Below, piece by piece: positions 7,606 through 19,737 of a DNA stretch of 41,040 bases (within the stretch, counting starts at the first letter, position 1; every line of letters begins with the position of its first letter). The notes under the pieces are model-generated. The model ran no database searches. It saw only the letters and a program-made list of their open reading frames with translations, and had not been told where the DNA came from. The stretch spans positions 1 to 41,040 of the forward strand of contig JASEGZ010000013.1 in the NCBI GenBank assembly GCA_030018935.1. The letters run 5' to 3'. The position numbers and the translations under genes are program-made. Source of the DNA: Syntrophales bacterium. Its GTDB lineage: Bacteria; Desulfobacterota; Syntrophia; Syntrophales; CG2-30-49-12.

Positions 7606-7644
7606 GGTGATAAATACCTCCATTGGGGGTTAAATTTTATTTGT

Positions 7645-7674
7645 AGCTAACGCCGGTCGAGCGATTGGTTAGGC
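7645..7674 (-). other. Miniature attC-like site (centre deleted)
   Basis: On the minus strand the 30-bp site reads R'' GCCTAAC, then CAATCGCTCGACCGGC, then R' GTTAGCT. Both cores fit the integron patterns, and the middle resembles only the left half of a normal attC. R' starts the cassette holding the Dcd-like gene, and its six bases are complementary to the R'' of the attC at 6481-6487. Confidence 0.5.
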
Positions 7675-7817
7675 GGGCCGCTGTCAGCGGTCCACCGACA
7701 ATCGCGAGTCCGGGCGTAGCAGGGCAGTTCCACCGTAAGGCAGGCGAGAGCGTGGAGACGCGCCCTTATTATTGCTTCTATCCAATTTTTACACGGTGCG
7801 TCTCAAGCGGCCCGCCT
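7671..7817. repeat. ORF-less segment bounded by 12-bp inverted repeat
   Basis: AGGCGGGCCGCT (7671-7682) is repeated inverted at 7806-7817. The 147-bp segment contains no convincing reading frame. Because the left end overlaps an attC R'' and the right end supplies its complement, it could be a tiny non-coding cassette. From 7818 to 8041 the sequence is AT-rich and I see nothing recognisable. Confidence 0.4.
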
Positions 7818-14898: not shown

Positions 14899-15354
14899 AT
14901 GAGAAAAAACAACATAGACAAACTCAAGGGGTTTTACGAGCGGTTTATCAGCCTGAAAGGTGAACCGAAGACCATTGCCATGGGTATGGCAATGGGTGTT
15001 TTTATCGGTGTAACTCCCACTATCCCGTTTCATACAGCCCTGATTATTGTATCATGTCTCATCTTCAGGCAGAACATCGCCTCTGCCATTCTTGGTTCCT
15101 GGATCATCTCCAATCCTCTCACCATCCCGCTTTTTTATGTTTCGGAATATAAGTTGGGCAGGTACCTGTTGAGAAGCGACCATTTTCAGGTCGTCTTTAC
15201 GGACTATTCGATATGGAATGTTGTCAGCATGGGGTGGCGTGTTGCCGTTCCGTTGCTCACGGGAGGCATTATCGTTGCTCTCTTTTTCGCTCTCCCCGCA
15301 TATTTTATCACCTACCGCCTCGTACTGACGGTAAGAAAGAATCGTAACCAATGA
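14899..15354 (+). CDS. DUF2062 domain membrane protein
   Basis: The protein of about 151 residues is a DUF2062 member, recognised by KGEPKTIAMGMAMGVFIGVTP followed by the hydrophobic FHTALIIVSCLIFR and the NPLTIPLFY block. At least two to three membrane helices are expected, the last being GGIIVALFFALPAYFITY. Function is unknown. The frame is open from 14824, but the ATG at 14899, one base after the tsaD stop, fits the family start (MRKNNIDKLKGFYERF) and is preferred. It overlaps ksgA by 4 bp, so it is co-translated with its neighbours. Confidence 0.82.
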   Translation: MRKNNIDKLKGFYERFISLKGEPKTIAMGMAMGVFIGVTPTIPFHTALIIVSCLIFRQNIASAILGSWIISNPLTIPLFYVSEYKLGRYLLRSDHFQVVFTDYSIWNVVSMGWRVAVPLLTGGIIVALFFALPAYFITYRLVLTVRKNRNQ

Positions 15355-16274
15355 CCACACCCAGAAAAATCCTTAAAAATCACGGTATCCGACCACGGAA
15401 ACGTTTGGGACAGTCATTCCTCAAAGATAGAAATATTACAGACAGGATTGTTCAGACAGCCGATATCCGAAAGGAGGATACCGTTGTGGAGATAGGCGCC
15501 GGCCTGGGAATCATGACAGAGCTGCTGGCGGCCCAGGCCCGAAGGGTTATTGCCCTTGAGATAGATCCGTACCTGGTGTCCCTTCTCCGGGAAGAGCTGA
15601 AAGGCCACCCCAACGTGGAGATCATCCCGACCGATGTCCTTAAATATGATTTTTCTCTGGCCTGTCAGGAGTGTTTATCAGGCAAGTTGAAGGTTATTGG
15701 TAATATACCTTATAACATTTCCTCGCAGATATTGTTTCATTTAATATCCTACAAGCGCTGCATTGCATGCATGATCTTGATGTTTCAAAAGGAAATGGCC
15801 GATCGTATTGTCGCCCCTGTGGGAACAAAGGATTACGGCGTACCTTCCGTAGCGCTTTCCATGTACGGTATCGTCTCCCATGAGATGACCGTACCTCCTG
15901 AGTGTTTTTACCCCCAACCTAAGGTGATGTCTTCTGTACTGAAGATCGTGATGCGACAAAAGCCTCTGGTTGACTTAAAGGATGATGATTTTTTCAGGAA
16001 GATCGTAAAGATTGCTTTTTCGAAGAGGAGGAAAACCCTCTTGAATAATCTCCGTAGTGCAAATCTGCCGTTTTGTGAAAGGGAGATAAATTTATCTCTT
16101 GAGGCGGCGGGCATTGATGGCAGGAGGAGGGGGGAGACTCTGACAACGGAAGAGTTTGGTGTATTAAGCAATGTCCTTTTCAATAAAATCACAGGCAATC
16201 ACCTTTCATTTTCCGTGATGCCCCAACCGGGCGAAGATATTAGTTCAAACCAAGGGAATAATTGTAACAATTAA
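15351..16274 (+). CDS. ksgA: 16S rRNA dimethyladenosine transferase
   Basis: RsmA/KsgA dimethylates the two adjacent adenines A1518 and A1519 near the 3' end of 16S rRNA, using SAM. Motifs visible are GQSFLKDRNITDRIV, the SAM-binding VVEIGAGLGIMTELLA, and the catalytic GNIPYNISSQILF. The length is 307 residues, with a C-terminal tail beyond the usual end that is rich in asparagine. The start overlaps the previous stop in ATGA. The gene is followed by a 250-bp gap and then an integron-type cassette. Confidence 0.95.
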   Translation: MTTPRKILKNHGIRPRKRLGQSFLKDRNITDRIVQTADIRKEDTVVEIGAGLGIMTELLAAQARRVIALEIDPYLVSLLREELKGHPNVEIIPTDVLKYDFSLACQECLSGKLKVIGNIPYNISSQILFHLISYKRCIACMILMFQKEMADRIVAPVGTKDYGVPSVALSMYGIVSHEMTVPPECFYPQPKVMSSVLKIVMRQKPLVDLKDDDFFRKIVKIAFSKRRKTLLNNLRSANLPFCEREINLSLEAAGIDGRRRGETLTTEEFGVLSNVLFNKITGNHLSFSVMPQPGEDISSNQGNNCNN

Positions 16275-16285
16275 CTGAACATGTT

Positions 16286-16408
16286 ATGATAATAGGTAAA
16301 TATCTGAAAGTGGAAAGGCTCTGGGTTCCGGGTCCAATGGATATCTTATTTCAGGGGGAAGAAACTCCAATCGGACCTATAGTGGACTGGATCAAGCAAC
16401 GAATCTGA
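16286..16408 (+). CDS. Possible small protein, 40 aa
   Basis: A short frame beginning MIIGKYLKVERLWVPG and ending VDWIKQRI lies just after ksgA. There is no good ribosome binding site and no recognised family. It could be a remnant or chance. From 16409 to 16493 I see nothing. Confidence 0.2.
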   Translation: MIIGKYLKVERLWVPGPMDILFQGEETPIGPIVDWIKQRI

Positions 16409-16493
16409 TTCGCACAACAAATAAATACAATGATATAATAATAACTTGGGTAAAGTAAATTTGCCCGAAAATGTATTCAATCTAATAAGTGGT

Positions 16494-16518
16494 TTATCAG
16501 GGCATATCGGCCTGATAA
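16494..16518. terminator. Perfect 8-bp hairpin before the cassette
   Basis: TTATCAGG (16494-16501) and CCTGATAA (16511-16518) form a perfect stem with a 9-base loop, seven bases before the cassette boundary. There is no T run. It may end ksgA transcription, and as a foldable structure it may have attracted cassette insertion. Confidence 0.45.
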
Positions 16519-16548
16519 TCAATGGTTAGGCAGGGAGATTAGATAAAA

Positions 16549-17142
16549 ATGCTTCAAATTAATCCTAAACGAATTCCTGGTAACTGGACGGAAGGATTTG
16601 CATTGGATTTCCATACTCTCAGTAGCCAATACATCGGTGATGACGAATACGGACATCCCCAATTTGACACAAAGCGCAGTGACGTCGGCGAATTGCTGTA
16701 TAGGCTGAAATACGGAAAGGACAAATCCGTGCTCGGTGAGATCATTGTTACTGTTAGCCAGTTCATCAAATCCAAGAATTGGCCTGTAGATTTTATTGTC
16801 TGCGTCCCGCCGTCTCGAAAAGGGCGGCAGTTCCAGCCAGTTACTCCCGTTGCTATCGGGATAGGCAAGGCTCTGAGCATAGATGTCTGTGTCGACACTG
16901 TTGTGAAGGTGAAAGATACACCCGAACTCAAGAACATATTTGATTTTGAAGAACGAATGCGTATACTTAAAGATGCATTCGAAATCCGCAATCCGGTCGT
17001 TGCCGGACACAATGTCTTGTTATTTGATGATCTCTATCGTTCTGGAGCGACACTGAATGCGATTTCAGGCCTCTTGCAACAGGAGGGTAAGGTAAGAAAC
17101 CTATATGTACTCACCCTAACTATGACTCGGAGTATACGATGA
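16549..17142 (+). CDS. ComF-like phosphoribosyltransferase
   Basis: The 197-residue protein has a type I phosphoribosyltransferase core. VDFIVCVPPSRKGRQFQPV at about 80-98 is the ComF-like PPSR segment, and VLLFDDLYRSGAT (156-168) is the PRPP-binding loop with its acidic pair. It lacks the N-terminal zinc ribbon of standard ComF. The base substrate is unknown. GGGAG at 16533-16537 precedes the start. The stop overlaps the next start in ATGA, so the PRTase and the SLOG-like protein are made together. No purine or pyrimidine salvage gene is nearby, and an accessory nucleotide-based role is inferred from the pairing and the cassette context. Confidence 0.8.
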   Translation: MLQINPKRIPGNWTEGFALDFHTLSSQYIGDDEYGHPQFDTKRSDVGELLYRLKYGKDKSVLGEIIVTVSQFIKSKNWPVDFIVCVPPSRKGRQFQPVTPVAIGIGKALSIDVCVDTVVKVKDTPELKNIFDFEERMRILKDAFEIRNPVVAGHNVLLFDDLYRSGATLNAISGLLQQEGKVRNLYVLTLTMTRSIR

Positions 17143-17696
17143 CGAAGGTGTTTTTGGGAGGCTCTCGAAAGCTGAACCATTTGAATCGTGCGATTAGAGA
17201 ACGAACTGATAATATAGTTGTTAAAGGCTATGAAGTCCTCATTGGTGATGCAAATGGTGCTGACAAAGCCATGCAGAAATATTTGGCCGATAAACGCTAT
17301 AAGAACGTTATTGTCTTTTGCATGAGCGGTACTTGTCGAAATAATCTGGGAAACTGGCAGACCAAGACCGTGGCTTCAAACAGCAACAAAAAAGACTTTG
17401 ATTATTTTGCGGCGAAGGACAGAGAAATGAGTGAACAGGCGGATTATGGATTCATGCTTTGGGATGGTAGGAGTAAAGGCACCTTGAATAATATCATCAA
17501 TCTTCTCCAAGGTAACAAATACGTGCTGGTTTATTTCTCTCCCAGCAAAACTTTCTTTACGCTAAAGAGCCCGTCTGAGCTTGAAAATCTCTTACAGAAA
17601 TGTGATCCGATGAGTGTCCGACGTTTCAATCACACCCTAAGAGTTACAGAACGACTTATGGATGCAAATGCCCAAGGTCAGTTGAAACTTGCCTAA
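17139..17696 (+). CDS. SLOG/YspA-like nucleotide-binding protein
   Basis: This 185-residue protein looks like a member of the SLOG (SMF/DprA-LOG) Rossmann-like superfamily, nearest to the YspA/DUF2493 type. It has an N-terminal VFLGGSRKL strand-loop (5-12), GDANGADKA (36-44), FCMSGTCRNN (60-69) and a long conserved stretch with KDREMSEQADYGFMLWDGRSKGT (93-115). SLOG proteins bind or cleave nucleotides and nucleosides. Some act in biological conflict systems as ligand sensors (family knowledge from the SLOG superfamily literature). The gene overlaps the PRTase by 4 bp, and its stop codon lies inside the attC R'' core, as is normal in compact cassettes. There is no membrane segment. Confidence 0.7.
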   Translation: MTKVFLGGSRKLNHLNRAIRERTDNIVVKGYEVLIGDANGADKAMQKYLADKRYKNVIVFCMSGTCRNNLGNWQTKTVASNSNKKDFDYFAAKDREMSEQADYGFMLWDGRSKGTLNNIINLLQGNKYVLVYFSPSKTFFTLKSPSELENLLQKCDPMSVRRFNHTLRVTERLMDANAQGQLKLA

Positions 17697-17748
17697 CCAT
17701 TCACTCCAGCGGATGGCTTACAGCCCCCGCTGATTTCAATCGTTCACG
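17691..17748 (+). other. Integron attC site ending the PRTase-SLOG cassette
   Basis: The site has R'' GCCTAAC, L'' ACTCCAGCGG, a short centre, L' CCGCTGATTTC and an R' position of GTTCACG. The L arms pair (CAGCGG/CCGCTG), and the outer arms align further with bulges. R'' matches the complement of the cassette start at 16525-16531. R' departs from GTTRRRY because its last six bases belong to the chromosomal flank. Confidence 0.7.
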
Positions 17749-17808
17749 ATAATTACGATAGGGGGAGACGGGAGTAACCGATGCCAAAAATTTTCCGGGT
17801 AATGGAAA

Positions 17809-19128
17809 TTGGAACAAAAGTATCTCTACATTAAGACCTTTGGCTGTCAGATGAATGTCCACGATTCCGAGCAGATTGCCGCGTTGCTTAAGGCCTCTGG
17901 ATATGAAAGCACTGATGATTTCAGGAAGGCCGATCTGGTCATCGTAAATACATGCAGTATCAGGGAAAAGGCGGCGCAAAAGGTGTACACTCAGTTAGGG
18001 AGATTCAGAGAATTAAAGCGCAGTAAACCCGGCCTGATCATCGGGATGGGAGGATGTCTTGCCCAGCAGTGGCGATCTAAAATCTTTGCCCGGGCGCCTT
18101 TTCTGGACCTGGTTTTTGGCACCCATAATATTCATCAGCTTCCCGATCTTATAAGAACTATCGAAACGACGGGATCACGGGTTGAAGAGACGGCATTTCA
18201 CGAATCGGTAAAATCGCTGGGCATCAGGGCGCTGCCGCAAAACGGGGCGGTCAGCGCTTATGTAACCATCATGCATGGTTGTAATAATTTTTGTTCCTAC
18301 TGTGTTGTTCCTTACCTGCGGGGGCCGGAGGTGAGCAGACCATCTCAAGATGTTATTGATGAGGTTAAAGCCCTTGCCGACCACGGGATCAGGGAAGTGA
18401 CACTCCTCGGTCAGAACGTCAATTCCTATGGTAAAACCATGGGGACTGATTTTGCCGCCCTGTTGCACGAGGTGGGAAAGATCGGGGGTATCGAGAGGGT
18501 CAGATTTACCACCTCGCATCCGAAGGACCTGTCTTTTGATTTGATAAGGTGTTATACTGATGTTGATAAGTTGTGTGAGCACATTCATCTTCCCGTTCAA
18601 TCGGGCTCAGGCCGTATCTTGAGAATGATGAACCGGGGTTATACAAAGGCCCAGTACCTGGATAAAGTGGAAAGTCTCAGGAACATCTGCCCGAATATCA
18701 GTATTACTTCAGATATGATTGTGGGATTTCCCGGCGAAACAGAAAAGGACTTTCAAAAAACAATAGACTTGATGGAAAAAATCAGGTTTGATAACCTCTT
18801 TTCTTTTAACTATTCGGAACGTGAGGGGACCGCGGCGGTAAAGTTTGCCGACAAGGTGGATGAATGCATCAAGCACGAAAGACTGCAGGCGCTTCAATCT
18901 CTCCAGGAGAAGCATACTCTTGAGAGAAACAGGGCACTGGAGGGACGTGTAGAAGATGTACTGGTGGAGGGGGTAAGCAAGAAAATGCCCGACGAGATGA
19001 CGGGAAGGACAAGGTCCAACAAAATTGTAAACTTTAGGGGAAAAAAAGAACTTATCGGGAAGACGGTTTCCGTTTTGATTACAGAGGCATATTTGCATTC
19101 CGTAAGGGGGGAACTACATCAAAAGTAA
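17809..19128 (+). CDS. miaB: tRNA-2-methylthio-N6-dimethylallyladenosine synthase
   Basis: MiaB is a radical SAM methylthiotransferase that adds a methylthio group to i6A37 of tRNA. The N-terminal UPF0004 domain shows TFGCQMNVHDSEQ, VNTCSIREKA and GGCLAQQ cysteines for the auxiliary cluster. The radical SAM motif CNNFCSYC lies in MHGCNNFCSYCVVPYLRG, and a C-terminal TRAM domain follows. The length of 439 residues is normal. The only possible start is TTG at 17809, since an in-frame stop lies at 17800. The upstream ATG codons at 17781 and 17802 are in another frame. The cassette insertion ends about 67 bases upstream and may have replaced the native promoter. Confidence 0.95.
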   Translation: MEQKYLYIKTFGCQMNVHDSEQIAALLKASGYESTDDFRKADLVIVNTCSIREKAAQKVYTQLGRFRELKRSKPGLIIGMGGCLAQQWRSKIFARAPFLDLVFGTHNIHQLPDLIRTIETTGSRVEETAFHESVKSLGIRALPQNGAVSAYVTIMHGCNNFCSYCVVPYLRGPEVSRPSQDVIDEVKALADHGIREVTLLGQNVNSYGKTMGTDFAALLHEVGKIGGIERVRFTTSHPKDLSFDLIRCYTDVDKLCEHIHLPVQSGSGRILRMMNRGYTKAQYLDKVESLRNICPNISITSDMIVGFPGETEKDFQKTIDLMEKIRFDNLFSFNYSEREGTAAVKFADKVDECIKHERLQALQSLQEKHTLERNRALEGRVEDVLVEGVSKKMPDEMTGRTRSNKIVNFRGKKELIGKTVSVLITEAYLHSVRGELHQK

Positions 19129-19208
19129 GCGTTCAGCTATCAGCCTTCAGTTTTCAGCAAAAACAATAAAGATAATAGGGGTTGCTGATCGCTGACGGCT
19201 GAACGCTT
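19127..19208. repeat. Intergenic inverted repeat
   Basis: AAGCGTTCAGC (19127-19137) and GCTGAACGCTT (19198-19208) are a perfect 11-bp pair. Further TCAGC/GCTGA words inside can pair as well. The left arm includes the miaB stop codon. It belongs with the other TCAG-rich hairpins in the window. Confidence 0.65.
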
Positions 19209-19236
19209 GCCATCAAAAAAGGGGGGGGGTTGACAG

Positions 19237-19737
19237 ATGCTTATAGAAATGAAGGTATCCGGATTGACGCTAGATCCGATCACGAATACACCAATTGTAA
19301 TTTTGAAAGATCTCCACGATAGGAAGGCTGTTCCCATATGGATAGGGATCTTTGAGGCCAGCGCCATCGCAATGGAGTTGGAAAAGGTTAATTTTTCCCG
19401 ACCCATGACTCATGATCTTCTCAACGATGTCCTGGAGACCCTCGATGTTTCCGTCACGAAGATCGAAATAAACGACATCAGGAATAACACCTTTTTTGCC
19501 AATATCTATTTAATTAAAGATGGGAGTGAGTTCATCGTTGATTCTCGTCCCAGTGATGCCATTGCCCTTGCCTTGAGGGCCAATGCACCGATATTTGTTG
19601 ATGATAAAGTTATCGAGAAATCCCGGAATGTAGATTTCGGCACAAAAATGGCGGATATTGATGATGTAAAAAAGGAAAAATTGAGGGAATTTCTGGAAAA
19701 TCTTTCTCCCGATGATTTTGGAAAATATAAGATGTAA
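19237..19737 (+). CDS. Bifunctional nuclease family protein (DUF151)
   Basis: The 166-residue protein is a DUF151/BFN-domain member: VSGLTLDPITNTPIVILKD, then PIWIGIFEASAIAMELE, then SRPMTHDLLNDVL, and the block DSRPSDAIALALRANAPIFV. Plant homologues were described as bifunctional nucleases acting on RNA and DNA; bacterial roles remain unclear. There is a ribosome-binding G-run GGGGGGGG at 19220-19229. It lies between miaB and xerC in the same direction and is probably part of the same transcription unit. Confidence 0.88.
   Translation: MLIEMKVSGLTLDPITNTPIVILKDLHDRKAVPIWIGIFEASAIAMELEKVNFSRPMTHDLLNDVLETLDVSVTKIEINDIRNNTFFANIYLIKDGSEFIVDSRPSDAIALALRANAPIFVDDKVIEKSRNVDFGTKMADIDDVKKEKLREFLENLSPDDFGKYKM

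Follow-up and report, generated by a model that had tools for sequence, protein, structure and literature searches.

A compact phosphoribosyltransferase/SLOG gene pair in an integron cassette of a Syntrophales bacterium: a probable toxin-antitoxin module

Background

Several toxin-antitoxin pairs have been described in which a phosphoribosyltransferase (PRTase) toxin is restrained by a DprA-like partner. RqlH of Escherichia coli is a RecQ-like helicase, the toxicity of which requires its C-terminal PRTase domain; it is countered through direct contact by RqlI, a DprA-like protein with an HTH, and the toxin gene lies upstream (PMC4670107). PsyrTA is the orthologue of RqlHI (PMC4670107). ShosT, a phosphoribosyltransferase and pyrophosphatase, is reported to perturb purine metabolism and nucleotide pools, which leads to DNA damage, and to be counteracted by the DNA-binding protein ShosA (reviewed in PMC12593503). 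A DprA-PRTase pair of P2-like phages, which protects against T7 and lambda, has been linked to shosTA and rqlHI (PMC9122126). Toxin-antitoxin cassettes are also known from Vibrio integrons, where, in the parts of PMC11023631 drawn on here, they are described as stabilising the arrays by killing upon cassette loss.

Here we describe a pair of genes found in a stretch of 41,040 nucleotides from a Syntrophales bacterium (assembly GCA_030018935.1, contig JASEGZ010000013.1), referred to below as the window. The pair is carried by an integron cassette, which most probably encodes a compact PRTase/DprA(SLOG) toxin-antitoxin module of the ShosTA/PsyrTA/RqlHI kind, with the toxin gene first. This reading is based on profile matches, predicted folds, the linkage of the two genes, their one-sided decay and the presence of antidote-type HTH domains in relatives of the SLOG protein.

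Genomic context and cassette boundaries

The pair is located in a foreign block flanked by rsmA/ksgA (15351-16274) on the left and miaB (from about 17809) on the right. A congeneric sister species, whose flanking genes share 91-93% DNA identity with those of the window, shows a gap of only about 38 bp at the rsmA-miaB junction, and thus the block at 16287-17815 was either gained in the window genome or lost in the sister.

The cassette occupies positions 16526-17742 on the forward strand and is delimited by a GTTAGGC core site and a right-end attC. At the left end, GTTAGGC is found at 16525-16531, reading GG^TTAGGCA, with the cut between 16525 and 16526 and the first cassette base at 16526; at the right end, the core CGTT lies at 17741-17744 and is cut after 17742. 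The sequence at both ends thus agrees to the base with the earlier note on this DNA, in which a cassette with a TTAGGCA start, an R'' box and attC had been delimited. The attC site (17691-17744, forward strand) consists of the R'' box GCCTAAC (17691-17697), which contains the TAA stop codon of the SLOG gene, the inverted arms L'' (CCAGCGG) and L' (CCGCTGA), and the terminal core GTT. Two other attC sites of this genome, at C1:48193 and C4:10118, share 93-94% identity with it. Its right end reads GTTCACG and lacks a full R' box, the bases CACG being flanking DNA that is off consensus, as is expected where the last or sole cassette abuts flanking DNA. Because their R' boxes are cut off in this way, the sites of the window escaped a regular-expression scan for attC that required a complete GTTRRRY R'; the Rfam scan of the locus gave no match. 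The incomplete R' box might also have reflected the insertion of a solitary cassette at a non-classical attG site, a reading that was rejected in view of the attI copies. Elsewhere in the window, at about 7640-7675, there is an AGCTAAC...GTTAGGC pattern resembling a short attC remnant.

The attI recombination site, which receives the cassette at G16525^T16526, was assigned to positions 16457-16525 of the forward strand and has a hairpin, TTATCAGG/CCTGATAA, at 16494-16518. Copies of window positions 16457-16531 are dispersed in the same genome, at C31:6945-7018, C6:30863-30933 and C4:10811-10885 (88-92% identity), as well as a weaker one at C28:16246-16319 (72-74%). The C4 and C28 copies immediately precede intI remnants or intI-like genes, and after the C31 copy comes a cassette whose attC is complete, indicating that 16457-16525 is indeed attI. 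Four integron integrases scoring above the family cut-off are encoded in the genome, none of them at the window locus, and a tblastn search with two intI proteins found no intI near it. The cassette thus occupies a small integron that has lost its own integrase gene; the sequence predicted for the empty attI site is CAATGG^TTCACGATAATT.

A putative extended -10 promoter-like element, TGATATAAT (16431-16439, forward strand), with a weak or no -35 box, was recognised upstream of the cassette from the sequence and the alignment of the attI copies. A simple promoter scan did not list this motif; its position matches that of a -10-like box in the C28 attI copy, which makes a Pc-type promoter at this place plausible. 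With intI missing at the locus and the promoter weak, the cassette might be taken for a decayed passenger without present function, but this is very improbable, since both open reading frames are uninterrupted and retain every invariant motif residue, and purifying selection acts on both genes of the related pair L023/L024 (dN/dS about 0.26 for the PRTase and 0.15 for SLOG).

In the genome as a whole (2.07 Mb), dispersed attI copies, some of them without an adjoining intI, occur together with the full-scoring integrases and several fragmentary ones, suggesting that the integrons of this lineage have both proliferated and degenerated. The first cassette beside intI in the C1 integron (L044, 16988-17547) codes for a ParE toxin together with an Unstab_antitox antitoxin, and an Unstab_antitox gene is also present in the C31 array region. 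A large ATPase/helicase-like ORF of C1 (L044, about 18934-19501), PIF1-like by eye, adjoins the intact integrase gene, overlapping the end of intI or beginning just downstream.

The PRTase

The two genes, at 16549-17142 and 17139-17696 of the forward strand, overlap by 4 bp, as had been noted earlier; the start codon of the SLOG gene overlaps the stop codon of the PRTase gene (ATGA), and the genes are probably translationally coupled. The first of them encodes a ComF-like phosphoribosyltransferase of 197 aa, the proposed toxin. Among the PADLOC profiles, it matches PsyrT (4e-17), although only in the C-terminal PRTase part of that profile (positions 537-685 of 689), and ShosT (4e-5), and both profiles are matched by all 22 aligned PRTase sequences. 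The match to comF (TIGR00201) has an E-value of 1e-9, under the curated cut-off, and that to the Pfam PRTase profile is weak. A profile comparison was strong for the PRTase (E 8e-10), in contrast to that of the SLOG family with one PsyrA sequence.

The AF2 model of the PRTase (pLDDT 92.7) is closest to ComF of Helicobacter pylori (Z 16.8, rmsd 2.8, 165 residues). The best structural match after ComF is ShosT with phosphate or PRPP (Z 12.8 and 12.7, rmsd 3.3, 165-166 residues), while the adenine PRTases (APRTs) reach a Z of about 11. Both the fold and the PsyrT, ShosT and comF matches therefore bear out the earlier proposal of a ComF-like enzyme. The PRPP-binding loop, LLFDDLYRSGAT (17017-17052, forward strand; residues 157-168), is intact in the PRTase alignment, and its residues L157, D160, D161 and G166 are invariant in the 22 aligned sequences.

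The SLOG protein

The second gene (17139-17696, forward strand) encodes a SLOG/DprA-like Rossmann protein of 185 aa, the proposed antitoxin. Its AF2 model (pLDDT 93.5) found ShosA (8zva, E 3.5e-5) as the best Foldseek match, followed by the SLOG domain of ThsA and by DprA. In terms of Z (VIA), the model scores 12.4 with ShosA (rmsd 3.5, 147 residues), 12.4 with DprA and 13.9 with YpsA (rmsd 3.0, 135 residues), and hence Z does not set ShosA apart. The protein is Rossmann-like, with a glycine-rich nucleotide loop and an SxGT loop; residues F5, G8, GDA.G.D (36-42), Q46, R67, D94, W108, S112, G114 and N118 are invariant in the family. The SLOG fold that had been assigned to this protein from its sequence is thus corroborated by the model, Foldseek and the Z scores, whereas for the label YspA-like the sequence match is weak: the window SLOG does not match YAcAr (PF10686), 2 of 30 family members do (best E 0.034), and DprA and ShosA are closer.

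Profile searches were less informative for this protein than for the PRTase. The window SLOG matched none of the Pfam and PADLOC profiles, a sequence-profile search of solved structures gave nothing, and a comparison of the family with a single PsyrA sequence returned one short Rossmann segment of low probability. Some of its relatives do match the profiles of DprA (PF02481, 6/30), ShosA (4/30, best E 3.8e-4) and PsyrA (3/30). The PsyrA profile does not mark PsyrTA, as it matches ordinary DprA in nearly all genomes.

Some relatives (L039, L040 and L095) carry a C-terminal HTH extension of the HI1420 antidote or XRE type, recognised by PF21716, 'addiction module antidote' (E 7.5e-23, 2/30), or by HTH_37 (1.8e-19, 1/30), and two HTH-bearing relatives are called 'addiction module antidote protein' in public annotation. 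The window SLOG has no HTH; its C-terminus is formed by a short helix and a Q-x-x-L tail, the latter conserved among the short forms. In these short forms, a variable linker precedes the conserved Q-x-x-[LI] tail (window 17667-17693), which may possibly contact the toxin or serve as a degradation tail.

The SLOG fold also bears on another possible reading, in which the PRTase makes a nucleotide upon infection or stress and SLOG is an effector that binds or cleaves it. The SLOG domains of ThsA and TRPM2, which bind ADP-ribose-type ligands, are structural neighbours of the window SLOG, PRTases make nucleotides, and the overlap and probable coupling of the two genes would suit such a pathway as well. 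However, LOG phosphoribohydrolases have the catalytic motif PGGxGTxxE, and this motif was not found in the SLOG family alignment: the second loop reads WDGxSxGTxxN, with S112, G114 and N118 invariant and no glutamate at the catalytic place after the GT of the SxGT loop. Moreover, the protein has no separate killing domain. The decay of the pair, described below, provides a further argument against this reading.

Distribution and linkage

Relatives of the pair, in the same gene order and in near-contact, were found in Planctomycetota, Chloroflexota, Acidobacteriota, Verrucomicrobiota, Raymondbacteria, deltaproteobacteria, alpha- and gammaproteobacteria, Neisseria and Listeria. In 395 genomes of the same phylum, SLOG is present at nine places, six of them with a PRTase, and all six close PRTases adjoin SLOG. 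At least 48 of the 57 plasmid records with the PRTase also have SLOG; two without it were seen among the matches listed, both with a broken PRTase (one frameshifted, the other truncated by IS1). The two genes are thus conserved together in other genomes, one of the two points on which the earlier proposal of a functional pair depended, the other being the SLOG fold. Plasmid copies are often located near rep, par, parDE or vapC genes.

Carriage by a cassette, by contrast, is a property of this copy: none of the other copies examined has a convincing attC, and the cassette is thus incidental to the family, one vehicle among several. L017 is a possible second cassette: it starts after CGTTAGAC, yet no convincing attC follows. 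Scanning of viral contigs (IMG/VR) with each protein found no relatives, so that, by the patterns used, there are no phage-borne copies among them; GenBank phages gave weak partial SLOG matches only.

Orphan SLOGs without any PRTase occur on rhizobial plasmids and in Planktothrix, indicating that SLOG can act alone. Among the SLOGs without PRTase on rhizobial and methylobacterial plasmids, a DUF736 gene is found nearby in L091, L093 and L096.

The folds and the distribution together allow one more explanation to be weighed, namely that the pair is a metabolic or DNA-uptake accessory, involved in salvage, recombination or competence, with no toxin. In fold, the PRTase is closest to ComF and SLOG is close to DprA, two proteins with roles in natural transformation. 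This explanation is nevertheless improbable, as the distribution is patchy and mobile (plasmids and the cassette), relatives are fused to antidote-type HTH domains, no helicase or competence genes adjoin the pair, and a full-length gene of the DprA type is present separately in the genome (the PsyrA-profile match at C28:17491).

One-sided decay and selection

In several loci, the PRTase gene is broken while SLOG is intact: by a TGA stop in L017, by frameshifts in L036 and in L086 from A. vitis, by an IS3 element in L041 (an Enterobacter plasmid) and by a deletion at a tRNA-Arg gene in L031. The reverse, an intact PRTase with a lost SLOG, was not seen among the matches listed. The decay count is small and the relatives were gathered mainly with SLOG as the query, a bias lessened by the searches with the PRTase. 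Decay of the PRTase with retention of SLOG is the pattern of a toxin and its antitoxin.

At the same place as L014, a solitary SLOG (L031, 4902-5588), 77% identical to the window SLOG, is located behind tRNA-Arg(CCT), and the last codons of the PRTase (ATGACCATGACCCAGAGTATACG) are still present directly after the tRNA gene, before the SLOG gene. Comparison of this SLOG with the window copy gave a dN of 0.115 and a dS of 0.666, i.e. purifying selection. It is possibly an anti-addiction remnant.

If SLOG were a harmful effector responding to a nucleotide signal, it should be the gene that decays, yet it is the PRTase that does. The toxin-antitoxin reading is preferred as the probable one and the nucleotide-signal system is considered unlikely. 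Several observations weigh against the preferred reading: the window SLOG matches no profile and only a short segment of PsyrA, it is devoid of the additional domains of ShosA, PsyrA and RqlI, and SLOGs also occur as orphans. Of the two-gene nucleotide-signal or nucleotide-depletion system proposed in the earlier note, the ComF-like PRTase, the SLOG fold, the cassette and the conserved pair all hold, and the signal pathway is superseded: in the closest characterised pairs (ShosTA, PsyrTA and RqlHI) a PRTase toxin is matched by a DprA/SLOG antitoxin, and the decay seen here fits such pairs, so that a free-standing pathway is needless.

Possible mode of action and significance

We infer the toxicity, neutralisation, nucleotide target and trigger of the module as follows. 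By analogy with ShosT, the free ComF-like PRTase would bind PRPP via its intact loop and disturb the nucleotide pools. SLOG, translated by coupling from the overlapping start, would keep the PRTase inactive, probably through a direct interaction like that between RqlI and RqlH. The toxin might be released by the loss of the cassette or plasmid, or by an infection that removes or distracts SLOG. As a result, the carrying element would be retained, and the module may also act in abortive phage defence, a role that is possible by analogy with the described pairs.

It is conceivable, if rather doubtful, that such pairs form a separate compact toxin-antitoxin lineage spanning several phyla, in which a lone SLOG without a DNA-binding part restrains the PRTase by sensing a nucleotide. 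Were this the case, the antitoxin itself would act as a metabolite sensor, with SLOG monitoring the PRTase product or the PRPP status and being triggered by changes in the nucleotide pools upon phage infection or loss of the element. The PADLOC-DB 2.0.0 copy used has no dedicated model for the compact PRTase/SLOG pair.

If the toxin-antitoxin reading is correct, the PRTase/DprA defence and addiction systems can be reduced to a core of about 380 residues, for which plasmids of clinical Enterobacterales, rhizobia and Listeria serve as vehicles, as does an integron cassette in the present case. A small, helicase-free pair would make the action of PRTase toxins on PRPP or nucleotides, and their silencing by SLOG, accessible to testing. 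As a cassette, the pair would add a non-classical toxin type to the toxin-antitoxin modules that stabilise integron arrays.

Comparison with known systems

The pair resembles ShosTA (PDB 8zva-8zvd) in the PRPP loop and in the predicted folds of both partners, the ComF/ShosT-type fold of the PRTase toxin and the DprA-like Rossmann fold of the antitoxin both being found here. It differs in architecture, as only ShosT 160-366 aligns with the window PRTase, and the 185-aa SLOG aligns from its residue 1 to positions 130-293 of the 308-residue ShosA chain, thus lacking the N-terminal part of about 130 residues. The structural alignments have 11-14% sequence identity and the window SLOG misses the ShosA profile.

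With PsyrTA/RqlHI, the pair shares the gene order, with the toxin first and the DprA-like partner second, and the match of its PRTase to the C-terminal part of PsyrT. In contrast to these systems, the window PRTase (197 aa) has no RecQ-like helicase domain, and the SLOG protein, with 185 aa against about 400, has neither a match to PsyrA nor an HTH. Since the helicase of PsyrTA and RqlHI is missing, as are the ShosA architecture and profile match, the pair is regarded as a compact variant of these systems and not as a member of any of them.

The competence proteins ComFC/GntX, also PRTases, and DprA have the same folds as the window pair, but no competence genes are found near it, and its relatives include fused antidote HTHs and copies carried by plasmids.

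Like the toxin-antitoxin cassettes of sedentary chromosomal integrons, as in Vibrio cholerae (PMC11023631), the cassette is a self-contained two-gene module, which, if it is indeed a toxin-antitoxin system, could kill upon cassette loss. Unlike it, the Vibrio cassettes described there carry classical systems with their own promoters, and a PRTase/SLOG pair is not mentioned in the parts of PMC11023631 drawn on here. By analogy, the window cassette could share the array-stabilising role of its Vibrio counterparts.
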